Positions 11,050 through 33,538 of a stretch of DNA of 33,538 nt are shown here, piece by piece. The notes under the pieces were generated by a model. It worked only from the letters and a program-made list of their open reading frames with translations, was not told the DNA's origin and searched no databases. Location of the stretch: positions 1 through 33,538 of the IMG/VR virus record IMGVR_UViG_3300042544_000142. One strand, given 5' to 3'. The translations under genes were made by a program, and so were the position numbers. The stretch's first letter is position 1, and each line of letters starts with the position of its first letter. This DNA comes from a virus.

Positions 11050-11541
11050 ATGGCAGCAGTAATAATACAAGAATTTCCTAATTACTCAATAAATGAGGTT
11101 GGGGAAGTAACAAACATAAGAACTGGTAAGCGTTTAATAAATACTACAAGTAAAAATGGTTATAGTATTGTTTGCCTATATAATCAATATGGTAGAAAAA
11201 TGATATATGTTCATAGGCTTTTGGCTGAATATTTTATACCAAAAATTGAAGGAATGAATCACGTTAATCATAAAAACGGCATAAAAAGCGATTATAGATT
11301 AGAAAATTTAGAATGGTGTAATCGTTCAATAAATATAAAACACGCTTGGGATAATGGATTACAAGAGAAAACAAGAAATGTAACAAGCAAAAGAATGTCT
11401 AAATTAGTATTAGATTTAGGTACAGGTATATTTTATAATTCAGCAAAAGAGGCTGCAAATTTGCTTGGTATAAATGAAAATACTTTAAGGTCATATTTAT
11501 CAAACTATTACCCAAACAAAACAAATTTAAAATACGTTTAA
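11050..11541 (+). CDS. NUMOD4-HNH-NUMOD1 homing endonuclease (tail-module copy)
   Basis: This 163-aa protein has an N-terminal NUMOD4-type module (Q-E-F-P-N-Y-S-I near residues 7-14), a His-Asn-His nuclease centre (H55-R-L-L-A, then N70-H71-V-N73-H74 and N86-L-E-W) and a C-terminal NUMOD1 helix-turn-helix (S-A-K-E-A-A near 132). Homing endonucleases cut DNA lacking the insertion and spread by repair. It sits between two tail genes, has its own promoter box, and is a clear relative of the gene at 23831, with the same length and architecture. It is most likely a selfish insertion. Confidence 0.9.
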   Translation: MAAVIIQEFPNYSINEVGEVTNIRTGKRLINTTSKNGYSIVCLYNQYGRKMIYVHRLLAEYFIPKIEGMNHVNHKNGIKSDYRLENLEWCNRSINIKHAWDNGLQEKTRNVTSKRMSKLVLDLGTGIFYNSAKEAANLLGINENTLRSYLSNYYPNKTNLKYV

Positions 11542-21995: not shown

Positions 21996-22188
21996 GGCTG
22001 ATTTATCGGAATGGAGGCGAGGATTAGATGATACAAGAATAATGATTAGTGAGGAAGATTTACTAATTAAGATTGCAAGGATGAATGACATTCAACGAAG
22101 AATCCTTAGAAGCTACCATTACCTTATTCTTGACCTTTATACATTAACGGAGGATTTTATGTTACCAATAAACCTTTTACATTTCTAA
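21892..22188 (+). CDS. 98-aa helical protein, unknown
   Basis: The protein starts inside the RHH-like gene (104-nt overlap); an alternative ATG at 21946 would shorten the overlap to 50 nt and begin M-L-L-E-L-L-K-Q. The region from residue 19 on is predicted as three long helices with a well-formed pattern (E-W-R-R-G-L-D-D, M-N-D-I-Q-R-R-I-L-R-S-Y). Its TAA shares a base with the start of the DnaA-like gene, so it is probably made with it. No family recognised. Confidence 0.6.
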   Translation: MSKLIYQEKQLKLHKRATMLLELLKQAQGRQNLFEADLSEWRRGLDDTRIMISEEDLLIKIARMNDIQRRILRSYHYLILDLYTLTEDFMLPINLLHF

Positions 22189-22625
22189 TGAGAGAAGTAC
22201 ACAAAACGTATATGGCAGAACTTGAAATAGAGGTTTTGCGAGAAAAGAACAAAGAACTAAAAAAAGAAATAAACAGGTTAAAAGACCTATTAGATCAACA
22301 TTTAAACATAAAAACAACAAGAATGGACAAAGAACAACAAAAAGAGTACGCAATACAAATAGCCGAAAAAGTGTGCAATTACTATCAAATTAAATATGGA
22401 CAAATGATGTCCAAATATAGAGGCGAGGAGGTTACTTTGGCAAGGCAAATGACAATGTACTTGACTAAGGAAAAAACCGAATTAAATGGCGAGGAAATAG
22501 CACAAATCTTCAATAGGGATAGGACAACAGTTTTGCACTCAATCCAAAAGATTAAAGGTCAATTGTCAAACAAGTTTGATGATACCATAAAAAAGGATGT
22601 TTTCAACTTAAATGTGCTTATTTAA
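22188..22625 (+). CDS. Stand-alone DnaA domain IV protein with N-terminal coiled coil
   Basis: The 145-aa protein lacks the ATPase domain of DnaA but ends in a domain IV-like DNA-binding module (about residues 55-125). T-L-A-R-Q-M-T-M-Y-L at 83-92 and the signature R-D-R-T-T-V-L-H-S-I at 110-119 match the region that contacts the DnaA box. Residues 8-40 form a strong coiled coil (E-I-E-V-L-R-E-K-N-K-E-L-K-K-E), suggesting dimers. It may recognise phage or host DnaA boxes, either to attract host replication factors or to block host initiation. It lies in the early operon next to recombination genes. Confidence 0.85.
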   Translation: MREVHKTYMAELEIEVLREKNKELKKEINRLKDLLDQHLNIKTTRMDKEQQKEYAIQIAEKVCNYYQIKYGQMMSKYRGEEVTLARQMTMYLTKEKTELNGEEIAQIFNRDRTTVLHSIQKIKGQLSNKFDDTIKKDVFNLNVLI

Positions 22626-23830: not shown

Positions 23831-24325
23831 ATGATTGTATTACAAGAATTTCCTAATTACACTATTGATATTAATGGCAATGTTTTTGACGTAGAAAAAA
23901 ATAAATATTGTCATTTTAATAAAGATAATTATGGGTATATTTTAGTTAATTTAAGAAAAAATAATAACTGGTATAAAAGAAAAGTACATAGATTATTAGC
24001 ATTAGCATATTTGCCAAATCCAAATAACAAATGCGATGTAAATCATATTGATGGAAATAAATCTAACAATAATTTATCAAATTTAGAATGGGCAACAAGA
24101 AGTGAAAATATGAAACACGCTTGGAATAACATTATAAAAGATGAGTCAAAAAATAAAATGATTAATAATTTTATAGATACTTCAAGATTAGTTTTAAATA
24201 CTACGAGTGGTATTTATTATAAATCAGTTAAAGAAGCTGCATATTATAATAATATAAAACTATCAACATTAAGAGGTCAACTATTAGGATATTATAAAAA
24301 CAAAACAACTTTAATTTACGTTTAA
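23831..24325 (+). CDS. NUMOD4-HNH-NUMOD1 homing endonuclease (replication-module copy)
   Basis: This 164-aa protein has the same three parts as the gene at 11050: N-terminal Q-E-F-P-N-Y-T-I, central K-V-H-R-L-L-A-L-A-Y plus V-N-H-I-D-G-N-K and N-L-E-W-A-T, and C-terminal S-V-K-E-A-A with S-T-L-R. The HNH centre is the more canonical of the pair (N71-H72-x-D74-G-N). The gene separates the zinc-finger gene from the SSB-like gene. AT content is even higher than in its neighbours, as usual for invading homing genes. Confidence 0.9.
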   Translation: MIVLQEFPNYTIDINGNVFDVEKNKYCHFNKDNYGYILVNLRKNNNWYKRKVHRLLALAYLPNPNNKCDVNHIDGNKSNNNLSNLEWATRSENMKHAWNNIIKDESKNKMINNFIDTSRLVLNTTSGIYYKSVKEAAYYNNIKLSTLRGQLLGYYKNKTTLIYV

Positions 24326-25013: not shown

Positions 25014-25891
25014 TACACGCATCATTATTTAGCGGAATCGGTGGATTTGATTTAGCAGCGGAATGGATGGGATGGGAAAATCTATTTCATTGCGAATGGA
25101 ATCCATTTGGTCAACAAGTATTAAAACATCATTTTCCAAATTCAATTAGTTACAATGACATCACTAAAACAGACTTCTCTATTCACAGAGGACAAGTCGA
25201 CATCCTCACAGGAGGATTCCCTTGCCAACCATACTCAAGTGCAGGAAAGCGACTTGGGAAAGCCGATGAAAGACATCTCTTCCCAGAAATGCTGCGAACA
25301 ATTGAAGAAGTTGAACCAACTTGGGTGGTGGGCGAAAACGTTCTCGGAATTGTTAATTGGGGAGGGGGATTGGTATTCGAAGAGGTGCAAACTGATTTGG
25401 AAAATAAGGGGTACGAAGTACAAGCGTATATACTTCCAGCTTGTGGCAAAAACGCACCACATAAAAGAGAACGAACTTGGTTTATTGCCTACTCCAAATT
25501 GTACGAGAATAAACATTCCAACAATAGAAGAAGTAAACAAAAGGAAGGAGATTTACGGAGGAAAAACGAGGGGAATGTATTTAACACATACAATAGCGAT
25601 GGGATTATTGCCAACTCCAACTCTTCAAGAGTACACGAACAGCACATTGCCTCCGAGTCAAATAAAGAGAACAAATTTAGCAGGACTACTTTTGAGAGAA
25701 GGAATTTTAGCAGGTTCCCATCTAAACCCCCAATTTGTGGAGGAGATGATGGGATTTCCAGAGAGTTGGACGGAATTACCTTTTCTAAGTGGAAAAACGA
25801 ATCATTAAAAGCATATGGTAATGCAATTGTTCCACAAGTTGCTTATGAGATTTTTAAGGCTATTGAAAAGTTTGAACTATTAAAAGATTAA
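25010..25891 (+). CDS. dcm: DNA (cytosine-5) methyltransferase
   Basis: The 293-aa enzyme transfers a methyl group from S-adenosylmethionine to cytosine C5. All key motifs are present: F-S-G-I-G-G-F (motif I, 7-13), G-G-F-P-C72-Q-P-Y-S (motif IV, catalytic Cys), G-E-N-V (VI, 108-111), H-K-R-E-R-T-W (VIII, 151-157) and Y-G-N-A-I-V-P-Q (X, 269-276). The target recognition part (about 165-260) is short and hydrophilic. There is no restriction enzyme partner, so protection from host restriction is likely. Bases 25155-25808 also encode a second open frame. The gene's 3' end contains a promoter. Confidence 0.93.
   Translation: MIHASLFSGIGGFDLAAEWMGWENLFHCEWNPFGQQVLKHHFPNSISYNDITKTDFSIHRGQVDILTGGFPCQPYSSAGKRLGKADERHLFPEMLRTIEEVEPTWVVGENVLGIVNWGGGLVFEEVQTDLENKGYEVQAYILPACGKNAPHKRERTWFIAYSKLYENKHSNNRRSKQKEGDLRRKNEGNVFNTYNSDGIIANSNSSRVHEQHIASESNKENKFSRTTFERRNFSRFPSKPPICGGDDGISRELDGITFSKWKNESLKAYGNAIVPQVAYEIFKAIEKFELLKD
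25155..25808 (+). CDS. 217-aa ORF embedded in the methylase gene (+1 frame)
   Basis: An ATG-initiated frame of 217 codons lies entirely within dcm. Chance openness over this length in AT-rich sequence is very unlikely without constraint, though the methylase frame itself biases codons. The product has protein-like motifs: two L-L-P-T-P segments (110-114 and 151-155) and L-N-P-Q-F-V-E-E-M-M-G-F-P with a following W (190-205). From memory these occur in hypothetical proteins annotated over or beside phage dcm genes. Whether it is translated is unknown, and the motifs could be by-products of conserved Dcm residues, since L-N-P-Q-F-V overlaps the D-D-G-I-S region. Confidence 0.5.
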   Translation: MTSLKQTSLFTEDKSTSSQEDSLANHTQVQESDLGKPMKDISSQKCCEQLKKLNQLGWWAKTFSELLIGEGDWYSKRCKLIWKIRGTKYKRIYFQLVAKTHHIKENELGLLPTPNCTRINIPTIEEVNKRKEIYGGKTRGMYLTHTIAMGLLPTPTLQEYTNSTLPPSQIKRTNLAGLLLREGILAGSHLNPQFVEEMMGFPESWTELPFLSGKTNH

Positions 25892-25901
25892 TGTATTTTT
25901 G
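25871..25901 (+). promoter_or_regulatory. Consensus promoter TTTG-N19-TATTTTTG
   Basis: TTTG at 25871-25874 and TATTTTTG at 25894-25901 with a 19-nt spacer match the Bacteroidetes promoter consensus exactly, the best example in this window. It lies over the end of dcm. The transcript should start near 25906-25910, at the first base of the structured element that follows. Confidence 0.8.
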
Positions 25902-25905
25902 TACA

Positions 25906-25994
25906 AAGGTGTCGGATACCTTATACTAACTTATTGGCTCAAAGCCGAAACCCTAATCCGACTGGGGTGGAAGCCGAGAGCCTTTTTTATTTTT
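25906..25994 (+). ncRNA. Structured leader RNA / small RNA ending in a terminator, before the replication initiator gene
   Basis: This 89-base stretch between dcm and the replication gene is GC-richer than its surroundings. Hairpin 1 is AAGGT/ACCTT (25906-25910 with 25918-25922) with a 7-nt loop GTCGGAT. Hairpin 2 has an outer stem GGCTC/GAGCC (25936-25940 with 25978-25982) and an inner ACCC/GGGT stem (25950-25953). Its apical loop contains ATCCGAC (25956-25962), the exact complement of loop 1, so the two loops could kiss. Six T residues (25983-25988) follow hairpin 2, making it an intrinsic terminator 6 nt before the ATG at 25995. It may be an attenuator or an ~80-nt sRNA. I do not recognise a known class. 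Confidence 0.6.
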
Positions 25995-26639
25995 ATGGCT
26001 AAAGACCCAGCGTTTTTATTCTACCCTAATGATTACATAGGTGGAACTATGGGTATGACTTTTGAGGAAAAAGGTGCATACATTGAATTACTAATGTTAC
26101 AATTTAATAGAGGTCATATGGATGGTCATATGATAGGTCATTGTGTAGGTCAAATATGGGAAAGAATTAAATGTAAATTTATACAAGATGAACAAGGTTT
26201 ATGGTATAATGAACGTTTAGATGTGGAAAAATCAAAAAGAAAGGCTTTTAGTGAATCAAGAAGGAATAATATTAAAGGTAATAATCAACATATGATAGGT
26301 CATATGACCACCCATATGGAAGATGAAAATGTAAATATAATTGAAGATAAAAATATAAATATAGATTTTGAATGGTTTTGGAATGAATATGATAAAAAGG
26401 TAGGGGATAAGCAAAAATTAAAAAAGAAGTGGAATAAATTAACCGATGAAGAAAGACAAAATGCAATGAATTATCTTGACCTTTACAAGAAATCAGTACC
26501 AGACAAGCAATTCCGTAAAAACCCAGAAACCTTTTTAAACAACAAATCTTGGAACGATGAAATCATTAACCGAAGTATTACCCCAATCCATAAACTATCT
26601 TACGCAGAACGAGAGGCTAATGCACTTAGAAGTCTATAA
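25995..26639 (+). CDS. Replication initiator / replisome organiser, DUF1376 family
   Basis: The 214-aa protein starts at ATG 25995 (M-A-K-D-P-A-F-L-F-Y-P-N-D), the hallmark start of this phage family. An in-frame TTG at 25899 lies in the leader RNA and is rejected. Residues 1-75 form the winged-helix N-terminal domain with G-G-T-M-G-M-T-F-E-E-K-G-A-Y and E-L-L-M-L-Q-F-N-R-G. Residues 40-53 are G-H-M-x repeats encoded by DNA iterons. After residue ~115 a W-F-W-N-E-Y-D-K-K domain resembles DnaD/primosome-type helical regions. It likely binds the origin inside its own gene and loads the helicase. Confidence 0.8.
   Translation: MAKDPAFLFYPNDYIGGTMGMTFEEKGAYIELLMLQFNRGHMDGHMIGHCVGQIWERIKCKFIQDEQGLWYNERLDVEKSKRKAFSESRRNNIKGNNQHMIGHMTTHMEDENVNIIEDKNINIDFEWFWNEYDKKVGDKQKLKKKWNKLTDEERQNAMNYLDLYKKSVPDKQFRKNPETFLNNKSWNDEIINRSITPIHKLSYAEREANALRSL
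26112..26159 (+). repeat. Iteron cluster A: four 12-bp direct repeats
   Basis: Copies of GGTCATATG-type sequence begin at 26112, 26124, 26136 and 26148, exactly 12 bp apart. The first two are GGTCATATG, the third GGTCATTGT, the fourth GGTCAAATA. They encode G-H-M-D, G-H-M-I, G-H-C-V and G-Q-I-W in the initiator. Such regularly spaced repeats inside an initiator gene typify phage and plasmid origins. Confidence 0.75.
26289..26324 (+). repeat. Iteron cluster B: three 12-bp units with a palindrome
   Basis: CATATG occurs at 26289, 26301 and 26313, again exactly 12 bp apart. Bases 26298-26309 (GGTCATATGACC) form a perfect 12-bp palindrome. The unit CATATGATAGGT is shared with cluster A (at 26127 and 26289), so the same protein probably binds both clusters. 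Confidence 0.7.
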
Positions 26640-30462: not shown

Positions 30463-31842
30463 ATGGGATTACTTGACTTTTTTGGTAAAAGACAAAAACT
30501 ATCTACTGTACTACCACAAATTCCTTTTAACGGACAAGTTGCAATACAACAAGGGATAATAACTTGGCAGGGTGGCGATAACATTAGTTTCGTTAATGAT
30601 GGTTATTCGGCAAACGATATAGTTTATTCAATCGTTAAATTAATTGCGGACAAAGCAAAACTTGCTCCATTCCACGTTTATAAAGTAGTGGATGAAAGTT
30701 CTGCAAAGAAATATAAGGCTTTAATGAGCCAACCAGATAAGATTGAGAACTGGAAGGATGTTGAAAAGCTACATAAGAAAGCATTTGAAATATATACAAA
30801 AGATGCACGATTAAACGAGTTATTAAAATACCCTAACCAAGAAGATACATTTGGCGATTTCGTAGAGGCTTGGTGTACTTTTAAATTAGTTACAGGTAAT
30901 TCTTTTGTTTACGCAAAGATGATTGAAGGTGGTAACAATGATGGTAAGCCGTATGAGTTATACGTGCTTCCTTCTCAATATATGTACGTGTTAGCGGACA
31001 TTCAAAACTTCCCTCCAACTATTAGCGGTTACCAATTGAACTATGGTCCATTATGGAACTTTACTAAACAAGAAGTATTACAAGATAAATACATAAACTT
31101 ACAATGGAATACAACTGGGAATCAACTATATGGTCAATCACCATTAATGGCTGCTGCGAAAAACTTGACTCGTTCCAACGAAGCCAAGACTGCGGCGGTT
31201 GCATCTTTCCAGAATGGTGGTCCAGCTGGAGTTTTATTTATGAATGATGATAGATTTGATCCTATTAGTGGAACACAACAAGCACAAGCACTTAAAAAAG
31301 CGGTGAGTGAAAAAGGTGGGTCTGCTAACTTTAATTCAATTGCAGTTAGTGGTTATAAAGTTGATTGGAAACAAATCGGTTTAAGTCCTGTTGAATTAGA
31401 TATCATTGAGAGTGAGAAGTGGGATATGAAAGCACTTTGTAATATTTACGGAGTACCATCTCAATTGTTAAACGATGCAGATAACAAGACTTACAACAAC
31501 CAAAGAGAAGGCGAGAAAGCATTGACAGTTCGTTGTGCGATTCCTTTGTTAGTTGGTATTCGTGATAACTTAAATAGAAAACTACATTCGGATTGGGGTT
31601 ATCGTGGAACTGATATTTATGTTGACTTTGACCCAACTGTTTATAGCGAATTAGAAGCAAACAAATCGGAACAAGTTGAATGGTTAGATAAGGCTTGGTG
31701 GATTGCACCTAAGCAAAAAATGGACATTATGGGATTAGAGATTCCTCCTTACATAGATCAAACTGAAATGGAAAAATTATACATCCCTTCAAGTTTACAA
31801 AGTCCAGATGAGTTTCAACCATTAACGCTACCAAATGAATAG
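30463..31842 (+). CDS. Portal protein, HK97 type (complete right copy)
   Basis: The 459-aa protein is the full version of the truncated gene at 2-1348. It begins M-G-L-L-D-F-F-G and contains the typical portal segments S-A-N-D-I-V-Y-S-I-V-K-L-I-A (about 45-58), the F-K-L-V-T-G-N-S-F-V-Y stretch (~140), the stem-region D-N-K-T-Y-N-N-Q-R-E-G and a C-terminal clip-like segment. It overlaps the next gene by 8 nt, exactly as in the left copy, and follows terL after a short gap carrying a promoter box. Confidence 0.93.
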   Translation: MGLLDFFGKRQKLSTVLPQIPFNGQVAIQQGIITWQGGDNISFVNDGYSANDIVYSIVKLIADKAKLAPFHVYKVVDESSAKKYKALMSQPDKIENWKDVEKLHKKAFEIYTKDARLNELLKYPNQEDTFGDFVEAWCTFKLVTGNSFVYAKMIEGGNNDGKPYELYVLPSQYMYVLADIQNFPPTISGYQLNYGPLWNFTKQEVLQDKYINLQWNTTGNQLYGQSPLMAAAKNLTRSNEAKTAAVASFQNGGPAGVLFMNDDRFDPISGTQQAQALKKAVSEKGGSANFNSIAVSGYKVDWKQIGLSPVELDIIESEKWDMKALCNIYGVPSQLLNDADNKTYNNQREGEKALTVRCAIPLLVGIRDNLNRKLHSDWGYRGTDIYVDFDPTVYSELEANKSEQVEWLDKAWWIAPKQKMDIMGLEIPPYIDQTEMEKLYIPSSLQSPDEFQPLTLPNE

Positions 31843-32209
31843 CCAAGATATTATAGATAAGTTATTTGATTTAAAGGTTGACCTTAAAGCTGACCTCAAC
31901 GAAATGGTTGATGAAGTTTACGCAAAGTATCACGATACTGTGAATATGTCTTATAGCGAATTAAAGGCTTGGAGTGAAACTAAATGCTCACGTTTAGCGT
32001 CATTAGATAGAAGTCCAGTAAACAGGAACTTAAATCTATTGAGTAAGAAAAAAGCTGATTGGGGTGCAAATGAAGTTAAGTCGGCAAATAGAACAATTAG
32101 CTTTGTAAGTAGAATGAAAAATATGGAGCAAGGCAAACCTGTAAACAAAGAGTGTCCATCTAAAAGGGATATTTCCTTAAAGAACTGGGCATACAATCCA
32201 AATAAATAA
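31835..32209 (+). CDS. Small conserved head-region protein (right copy), function unknown
   Basis: Same 124-aa protein as at 1341-1715, with about six changes, nearly all in the first 30 residues (for example S/N and G/A). Here it stops with TAA and is separated by 2 nt from the 130-aa gene, whereas the left copy ends in an ATGA overlap with the MuF gene. The stop codon therefore changed from TGA to TAA at the insertion/deletion edge. Function unknown; basic C-terminal half as in the other copy. Confidence 0.75.
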   Translation: MNSQDIIDKLFDLKVDLKADLNEMVDEVYAKYHDTVNMSYSELKAWSETKCSRLASLDRSPVNRNLNLLSKKKADWGANEVKSANRTISFVSRMKNMEQGKPVNKECPSKRDISLKNWAYNPNK

Positions 32210-32211
32210 AT

Positions 32212-32604
32212 ATGAATTACGCACAAAAATTCGTAGAATTAGCTAATGAGTTAATAAGCGAAATCAAGAAAACAACAGGCATCAATCGTAGTGGGATTAC
32301 ACAAGCTGCTTCATTAGTAAGTCAAGGCAAAGTAATAAGTTCAAGAAGTTGGAATCCACCATCTGCAAGTGAGGAGAACGCATACATTGAGGAAAATGGT
32401 ATGGCTGCTTATGGCAAGTGGTTTTTAGGCATTGATGCTAATGCTGATATGGATACTAAAGAACATTGGCACTACATTTATACAAGTGATTTTGTAAACG
32501 TTGATAGAGCTGGACTTATTGCTATTAGACAAAGAGCAGGTCAACAAGGTCAAACAGATGTATTCAATGCAGCTGGTAAGTTACTTGAAAAATTAGATGC
32601 ATAA
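32212..32604 (+). CDS. 130-aa head-region protein present only in the right copy
   Basis: The protein sits between the 124-aa gene and the MuF gene and is missing from the left copy. The N-terminal half has I-K-K-T-T-G-I-N-R-S-G and polar segments; the C-terminal half has W-H-Y-I-Y-T-S-D-F and a strong D-R-A-G-L-I-A-I-R-Q-R-A-G-Q-Q-G helix before A-A-G-K-L-L-E. This recalls the C-terminal helix module of DUF6582-type phage structural proteins, an impression that needs a profile search. The gene ends TAATG, so its stop overlaps the next start by one base. Being dispensable in the sister strain, it is probably an accessory or decoration protein. Confidence 0.75.
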   Translation: MNYAQKFVELANELISEIKKTTGINRSGITQAASLVSQGKVISSRSWNPPSASEENAYIEENGMAAYGKWFLGIDANADMDTKEHWHYIYTSDFVNVDRAGLIAIRQRAGQQGQTDVFNAAGKLLEKLDA

Positions 32605-33485
32605 TGATTTGGCAAGATTATAGGAAACTATACTTAAACGCAATAAAAACCTATTCGCCAAAGTTCAAGAAAGAACTACAAAGGCAAGTAGATACTTATT
32701 GCGATACCCAAGATTTAAACGCTATAAGCGATAAGAAGATAAAAAAGACCATCCAAAACGTTCATATTGCAATGGGCGTTAAGATGGCACAAATTGCGGA
32801 GAAAAACGTTTCTAAATCGGTTAAAGGTTATTACGGACCAGAGGAATTTAAAAGTAAGCAAACGGACTTGTTTACTTATGTGATGTTGACTTATCTTGAA
32901 CTAAAAGGATTAGATAATATAGCTGCCGAAATAACACAAACAACAAAGAACCAAATTCAACAATACTTGATAAAGTCGGTTGAGGAAGGTTTGACAATGC
33001 AAGAAACAATCAAGCTATTAAGAACGGCTGGTATAACGGACTACAGAGCCGAAATGATAGCAAGAACGGAAACAGGAAGGGCAGCAAATATAGGCTCAAT
33101 GGTAGGCACGGCATCCACAGGACTTGTAACTATAAAAGAATGGATAGCAGCGATGGATAACCGAACAAGGCGAGTGCCACGAGATCAGTTTGACCATTAT
33201 CATATGGATGGAATAAAAGTACCTTACGATGAAAAATTTAATGTTAAAACTAAGAACGGAGGTTTTGAGCAAATGTTACATCCTTGCGACCCAAGTGGAA
33301 GTGCTGGTGATGTTATCAATTGCCGTTGTACGTTAGGCTATGAAGCGGTAAGAGGCGAAGATGGAAAGCCAAAAAGGTTACAGGATAATCCGCCAAGAGG
33401 CGATATGGGATTAGTTTGGAATTTAATAAATAACGTGGCTTTAATGCAAATTTCTAATTTAATAAGAGATTTGTTAGCAGATTAA
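32604..33485 (+). CDS. Minor head protein, MuF / SPP1 gp7-like (right copy)
   Basis: The 293-aa protein is the allele of the gene at 1712-2593 and has the same A-R-T-E (153-156), C-D-P (228-230) and N-C-R-C (239-242) features. Substitutions include A171S, M177I, R184M, M195Q and M265R; most nucleotide differences are silent. Its start overlaps the upstream stop by one base instead of four, the direct result of the extra gene before it. Function as for the left copy: minor head component near the portal. Confidence 0.85.
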   Translation: MIWQDYRKLYLNAIKTYSPKFKKELQRQVDTYCDTQDLNAISDKKIKKTIQNVHIAMGVKMAQIAEKNVSKSVKGYYGPEEFKSKQTDLFTYVMLTYLELKGLDNIAAEITQTTKNQIQQYLIKSVEEGLTMQETIKLLRTAGITDYRAEMIARTETGRAANIGSMVGTASTGLVTIKEWIAAMDNRTRRVPRDQFDHYHMDGIKVPYDEKFNVKTKNGGFEQMLHPCDPSGSAGDVINCRCTLGYEAVRGEDGKPKRLQDNPPRGDMGLVWNLINNVALMQISNLIRDLLAD

Positions 33486-33503
33486 AAAAAATTAATAACT
33501 TTG
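33470..33503 (+). promoter_or_regulatory. Protease promoter, right copy
   Basis: TTTG at 33470-33473, a 22-nt spacer and TAACTTTG at 33496-33503, identical to the arrangement at 2578-2611 and again 4 nt before the ATG. Conservation of the element in two diverged strains supports its function. Confidence 0.6.
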
Positions 33504-33507
33504 TTAT

Positions 33508-33538
33508 ATGAGTAAGATTGAAAACAAAAGCTACAATG
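33508..33538 (+). CDS. Prohead protease, 5' fragment cut by the window end
   Basis: The first ten codons (M-S-K-I-E-N-K-S-Y-N) are identical to those of the complete gene at 2616-3359 and then the window ends. The truncation is an artefact of the window, not a broken gene. Confidence 0.9.
   Translation, partial: MSKIENKSYN

Follow-up and report, generated by a model that had tools for sequence, protein, structure and literature searches.

What kind of RNA stands between the promoter and the start codon of a phage replication initiation gene, and what does it do to that gene? This question was raised by a 33,538-nt stretch of viral DNA (IMG/VR record IMGVR_UViG_3300042544_000142, positions 1 to 33,538; hereafter the window), in which a sequence-only reading had suspected a structured RNA with kissing loops and a terminator, acting either as a switch in the leader or as a small RNA, for instance an antisense-type control of copy number. 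All features of the element lie on the + strand. A promoter of the Bacteroidota TTTG/TAnnTTTG type (25871-25901) is composed of a -33 TTTG (25871-25874), a 19-nt spacer and a -7 box TATTTTTG (25894-25901). Since the Bacteroidota -7 box occupies positions -12 to -5 (PMC9723704), transcription is predicted to start at A25906, where hairpin 1 (H1) begins. The H1 stem (AAGGT 25906-25910 / ACCTT 25918-25922) encloses the 7-nt loop K1 (GTCGGAT, 25911-25917). The linker ATACTAACTTATT (25923-25935), predicted to be single-stranded and with a portion, AACTTATT, that is near-invariant across the family, leads to hairpin 2, the terminator hairpin (25936-25982). This hairpin is made of an outer stem (GGCTC 25936-25940 / GAGCC 25978-25982), two middle pairs (25944-25974 and 25945-25973) and an inner stem (ACCCTA 25950-25955 / TGGGGT 25963-25968), whose loop K2 (ATCCGAC, 25956-25962) pairs with K1 in a 7-bp kissing helix. 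Between the terminator stem and the ATG at 25995 lies the U-tract TTTTTTATTTTT (25983-25994; six T, then ATTTTT), giving a leader of 89 nt. On re-reading the window sequence, the promoter directed at the first base of H1, the GTCGGAT loop, its exact complement in the loop of the second hairpin and the six T residues ahead of the ATG were all found as described in the sequence-only reading, while the outer stem, which joins the second hairpin to the U-tract, was absent from it.

Taken by itself the window sequence makes a weak case. Single-sequence folding missed the proposed structure and was not significant (MFE z = -1.49, with an MFE fold unlike the proposed one), so it was discarded as evidence, and a 7-nt loop complementarity was equalled in 3 of 100 shuffles of the window copy. 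It is the comparison with relatives that makes the case overwhelming. A search with the DUF1376-type gene returned 80 IMG/VR loci, most of them with the same upstream arrangement and with other loops that still matched each other. Independently of the gene, a DNA pattern comprising the linker and the second loop was found in at least 120 viral stretches, nearly all with the promoter, H1, the U-tract and a start codon 9-12 nt past the last stem, but with differing downstream genes. A descriptor of two hairpins with perfectly complementary 7-nt loops gave 239 raw matches in 1.6 Mb, many of which are duplicates or come from the opposite strand of an element already counted, against none in a Markov control; a control on reversed sequences was invalid, since hairpins persist on reversal.

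Because the descriptor itself selects for the kissing loop, upstream regions were also sampled only via their downstream gene. Three initiator types yielded 106 distinct upstream regions, 70 of which had a -7 box and a U-tract. The hairpin loops were complementary over 7-9 nt in 68 of these 70, while only 1.0% of dinucleotide shuffles reached a complementarity of at least 7 nt and, among the regions lacking the promoter and U-tract signals, one of 36 reached 7 nt. In the two exceptions (L412 and L420), an 8-nt complement (GAGCGAAC/GTTCGCTC) that the stem rule had missed was recognized by visual reading. More than 12 distinct loop pairs were encountered, always matched, with GTCGGAT, GTAGGAT, GTACGAG, GTACCAG, GTGAGAT, GTCGCAT, ATGCGAC, GTTGCAG, ATTGCAG, GTCGTTT, AGTCCAG and CTAGGGA (L054) as first loops. 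Matched first loops also include CTGCGAAC and GTACGAAC, from a subclass in which this loop has 16 nt, and L302 combines a GTTGCAG loop, matched by its partner loop, with a terminator scaffold of the GTACGAG type. Related phages thus show the covarying 7-bp complementarity of the loops that the sequence-only reading had named as support for kissing.

Two further scaffolds were observed. The first has a long 5' hairpin (ACACAT.../...ATGTGT), often with a 16-nt loop, a linker TTTAGTGGTTAAATAATAATA and a simple terminator hairpin; its loops are likewise complementary (7-8 nt) and matched between lineages (L071, L072, L074-L080, L390, L412, L420, L423-L425, L427 and L428). The other, in front of the same genes in L361, L369 and L414, has only a 6-nt complement (GTGGAT/ATCCAC) and a U-tract.

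Covariation was analyzed in an alignment (A1) of 72 distinct elements, for which H1, the inner stem and the kissing helix were entry conditions, while the outer stem and the middle pairs (columns 44-76 and 45-75) played no part in the selection. The four helices of A1 were 97% paired, compared with 78% in shuffles and less than 50% with slid partners, and two-sided changes were present at 18 of 23 pairs. The unselected outer stem and middle pairs covaried too, with stem variants such as GGCTC/GAGCC, GCCC/GGGC, GGCC/GGCC, GGTCC/GGACC and TGGGG/CCCCA. A structure-free scan of all A1 column pairs recovered just four helices of at least 4 bp, namely the 5' hairpin, the kissing helix and the inner and outer terminator stems. 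These column pairs yielded no conserved antiterminator, nor any other conserved helix of more than 3 bp, so the kissing interaction and the terminator appear compatible rather than mutually exclusive. The frequent G-U pairs in the stems argue for a structure of RNA rather than DNA. A leader peptide or another coding origin of the conservation was rejected, as the U-tract and the linker vary by 1 nt (a frame shift) and the downstream genes differ. The comparative evidence therefore strongly supports a structured RNA with a genuine kissing loop, kept through many coordinated sequence changes. The linker between the hairpins (AACUUAUU) is near-invariant in the family though predicted to be single-stranded, and is a candidate for protein binding or for contacting a groove of the kissing helix.

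A covariance model (R1) built without the kissing pairs scored the window copy at 95 bits and matched the L054 record at an E-value of 0.005, although its CTAGGGA variant was outside the training set. The R1 search found no credible second copy in the window; a possible second element before 18319, where a T-run precedes an ATG, was inspected and is not of the kissing-leader kind.

Promoter position played no role in choosing the 177 elements that have a -7 box, and in 176 of them the predicted transcription start is no more than 3 nt from the base at which the H1 stem begins. No second promoter lies between the terminator and the ATG, so the initiator would depend on read-through. Such a dependence, together with a stem-to-ATG spacing that stays at about 9-12 nt while the first gene varies widely, is awkward for a stand-alone small RNA, of which the terminated product of about 80 nt would act in trans and the replication gene merely follow. 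Two sharply defined ends, a compact fold and the occurrence of the element normally as a single copy per phage would all suit such an RNA, but no candidate target was identified, and we regard this explanation as unlikely.

The U-rich sequence after the outer stem points towards termination. It is present in all elements, with the first one or two positions non-U in some; in certain lineages the tract starts with A, AC, TA or TC (e.g., GGGC-TATTTT or GGGC-ACTTTT), and because of these weaker starts termination may be partial. A simple terminator scan passes over it, because loops of at most 8 nt are all that the scan accepts. In the window, the 14 nt before the ATG hold 11 T and one A, while most other listed starts are A-rich, and position -3 is occupied by T in 67 of 70 genes with the element and by A in 29 of 36 genes without it. 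Initiation in F. johnsoniae is favoured by A at -3 and -6 and hindered by structure near the start (PMC6847099), and the U-tract is therefore better explained by termination than by translation. The same comparison weighs on the idea of a device at the 5' end, in which the kissing structure would shield the mRNA from nucleases or position ribosomes and the U-rich stretch would serve as an unstructured initiation region. H1 lies exactly at the predicted 5' end, the distance to the ATG is constant and some lineages have a weak U-tract start, all of which would fit; the F. johnsoniae rules, however, disfavour a U at -3 and a hairpin whose end lies 9-12 nt ahead of the ATG, and U-tracts are not the local norm ahead of start codons. 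We consider this device distinctly unlikely.

The gene downstream in the window (25995-26639, + strand) is an O-like replication initiation gene with a partial N-terminal DUF1376, a match that falls below the Pfam cut-off, and it corresponds to a PHROG primosomal / replication initiation protein. Across the family, the initiators have several unrelated N-terminal types (DUF1376, Lin1244_N, HTH_36 and others) and match PHROG models of primosomal, replication initiation, O-like or DnaD-like proteins. Where an HNH-like, GIY-YIG-like or methyltransferase gene precedes the initiator, as in some phages, the element still heads the operon. Iteron-like repeats, differing by gene type (CATATGATAGGTCAT, AAGCCCCTTACAAGC and GGGGTATTCGGAAAAC), were seen inside O-like initiator genes (window 26112-26310; L154 11481-11804; L091 7312-7366) and are probable replication origins within the initiator gene, as in lambda O, so that the initiator and transcription across the likely origin would both depend on read-through. 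Elsewhere in the window, two HNH_3 homing-endonuclease-type genes (11050-11541 and 23831-24325) were noted, and 22188-22625, adjoining a RecT gene, encodes a small phage protein that carries the C-terminal (DnaA-box-binding) domain of DnaA. The window ends (1-2646 and 30495-33538) repeat each other at 93.7-95.1% identity, the right copy alone having an extra 130-aa ORF (32212-32604); apparently, the assembly runs more than once round a phage of about 30.4 kb through strain variants.

With regard to distribution, 44 of 50 whole records carry the element, normally once and in sense orientation; two of the 50 have a second copy at the contig ends and three have two elements with differing loops. 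An exact pattern scan found no bacterial genome with the main class, only scattered matches that lacked the hairpin pair when checked with the descriptor, which argues against integrated prophages. A covariance-model search of about 790 Bacteroidota genomes was also empty, although insensitive, with only 10 candidates scored per genome. A DNA similarity search of phage records returned no relative of the element, and Bacteroides phage SJC01, which has a related terminase, carries no element of this kind.

Loops that kiss within one RNA could also act on another, and a trans-acting antisense or kissing control of copy number or immunity would be in keeping with the position before the initiator, with 7-nt loops that kiss as in ColE1 RNA I/II, and with the five two-element phages (L019, L082, L235, L252 and L255), all of which carry different loops in their two elements. 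Several observations run counter to it. No minus-strand TAnnTTTG (the exact consensus only, other promoter types being possible) occurs in 25891-26260, an intramolecular partner competes for each loop, and the exact scan found the main class in no bacterial genome. Moreover, the loops evolve no faster than the stems: at equal scaffold identity the K loops were more conserved than the inner stems in most bins, and these rates ruled out loops diversifying as immunity tags. Among 10 loop types, K1 hardly varies at positions 2 (U) and 6 (A), and each unkissed loop could thus close its own U-A pair. We judge trans-kissing control highly improbable. A related proposal holds that the terminated leader would be a diffusible RNA kissing the nascent leaders of other genome copies, so that the balance of cis and trans kissing would sense copy number and shut off the O-like gene together with transcription through the iteron-bearing origin. 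If true, this would amount to an RNA-only replication control in a non-integrating phage, with the loop sequence setting which phages interfere with each other. The differing loops of the two-element phages and the many matched loop types in circulation are compatible with it, but loops that evolve no faster than the stems and an intramolecular partner that is always available speak against it, and we hold it to be very unlikely. Of the sequence-only reading, then, a structured RNA outside Rfam with a covarying kissing loop before the replication initiator stands, and a terminator-type leader is supported by position and sequence; its suggestion of antisense-type copy-number control is not supported, given the lack of an antisense TAnnTTTG in 25891-26260, the normally single sense copy per phage and the loop rates.

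The reading that we favour, by a little better than an even chance, is that of a cis-acting 5' leader of the phage replication operon, in which an imperfect intrinsic terminator braced by a kissing loop would limit read-through into the initiator. RNA polymerase would start at the element's own promoter, exactly at H1, which would fold first and offer its 7-nt loop to the emerging loop of the second hairpin. Kissing would brace the imperfect hairpin 2, of which the outer and inner stems are parted by internal loops with two short pairs between them, and the braced outer stem would form next to the U-tract, halting transcription immediately ahead of the start codon. The usual product would be a compact RNA of some 80 nt, with the initiator made from the fraction of transcripts that read through. 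A protein of the phage or the host that binds the conserved linker might relieve termination; alternatively, constitutive partial termination could set a low level of the initiator. The alignments establish the four helices, both predicted RNA ends and the position before O-like genes; from these we infer actual termination, a promoting rather than blocking effect of kissing and a regulated read-through. Phage replication is probably held back by the element. The cis-leader model leaves the conserved linker AACUUAUU unexplained, and, as far as the alignment goes, the absence of a conserved antiterminator counts against it.

To place the element among known RNAs, the window and nine divergent relatives were compared with Rfam 15. 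There were no matches at the gathering score (c4 antisense RNA and the cobalamin riboswitch included) and chance-level ones at relaxed E-values (up to 10), which places the element outside known Rfam classes, in line with the possible new RNA of the sequence-only reading. Literature searches of open-access papers gave no description of such an element. The P4 CI RNA and the P1/P7 c4 antisense RNA (Rfam RF01695) are phage leader RNAs with complementary segments in the same transcript that control replication or antirepressor genes. The element resembles them as a phage leader with complementary segments ahead of replication genes, but it pairs two 7-nt loops in one compact RNA and has no c4 match, and a role in lysogenic immunity is unlikely because the exact scan found no bacterial genome with the main class. 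Kissing 7-nt loops are known from ColE1 RNA I/RNA II and attenuation before a replication-initiator gene from pT181/pIP501-type plasmid attenuators. There the loops find their partner in trans, on an antisense RNA transcribed from the other strand, whereas the phage element has both loops on one RNA, with no antisense TAnnTTTG in 25891-26260. A type III toxin-antitoxin system was rejected, as the 89-nt element contains no repeat array and the downstream gene is a replication initiator.

Another phage RNA, the put RNA of HK022, suppresses termination through the zinc-binding domain of the RNA polymerase beta' subunit (PMC9378689). By analogy, the folded kissing RNA might bind the elongating polymerase and carry it past the attached and later terminators. 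Like put (PMC9378689), the element is a short two-hairpin RNA of about 80 nt with tertiary contacts, in its case predicted from covariation, and lies just downstream of an early-type phage promoter. Unlike the element, of which the helices and U-tract make a terminator-like end, put has no U-tract intrinsic terminator of its own and belongs to different phages and hosts; no sequence or Rfam similarity links the two, and put-like antitermination seems highly improbable.

The closest proven logic to the proposed leader is that of the corrinoid riboswitch, in which kissing decides for or against a terminator: kissing between L5 and L13 stabilises P13, whose stem contains a weakening internal loop, and thereby favours the terminator (PMC10653944). 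In both RNAs, in the phage element on the evidence of covariation, an upstream hairpin loop in a 5' leader kisses the loop of an imperfect expression-platform hairpin. The phage element differs in that it has no corrinoid aptamer core (no Rfam match, an 89-nt leader), a single bare 5-bp hairpin at the 5' end serves as the kissing partner, the 7-nt loops pair along their whole length in seven contiguous pairs, hairpin 2 is at once the kissed and the terminator hairpin, with no competing antiterminator found, and the genes that follow are phage replication genes. Kissing loop, intrinsic terminator and leader are each known singly, while their arrangement here is apparently undescribed and would constitute a new RNA family, widespread in uncultured Bacteroidota phages (at least 120 viral stretches from one sub-pattern alone). 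With a dozen matched loop pairs and swappable scaffolds, the effect of the kissing loop on terminator formation is testable with small constructs, and a compact toolkit for controlling expression in Flavobacterium and Bacteroides could result. A kissing loop that braces a terminator without a ligand-binding domain would be a minimal form of the corrinoid riboswitch logic.
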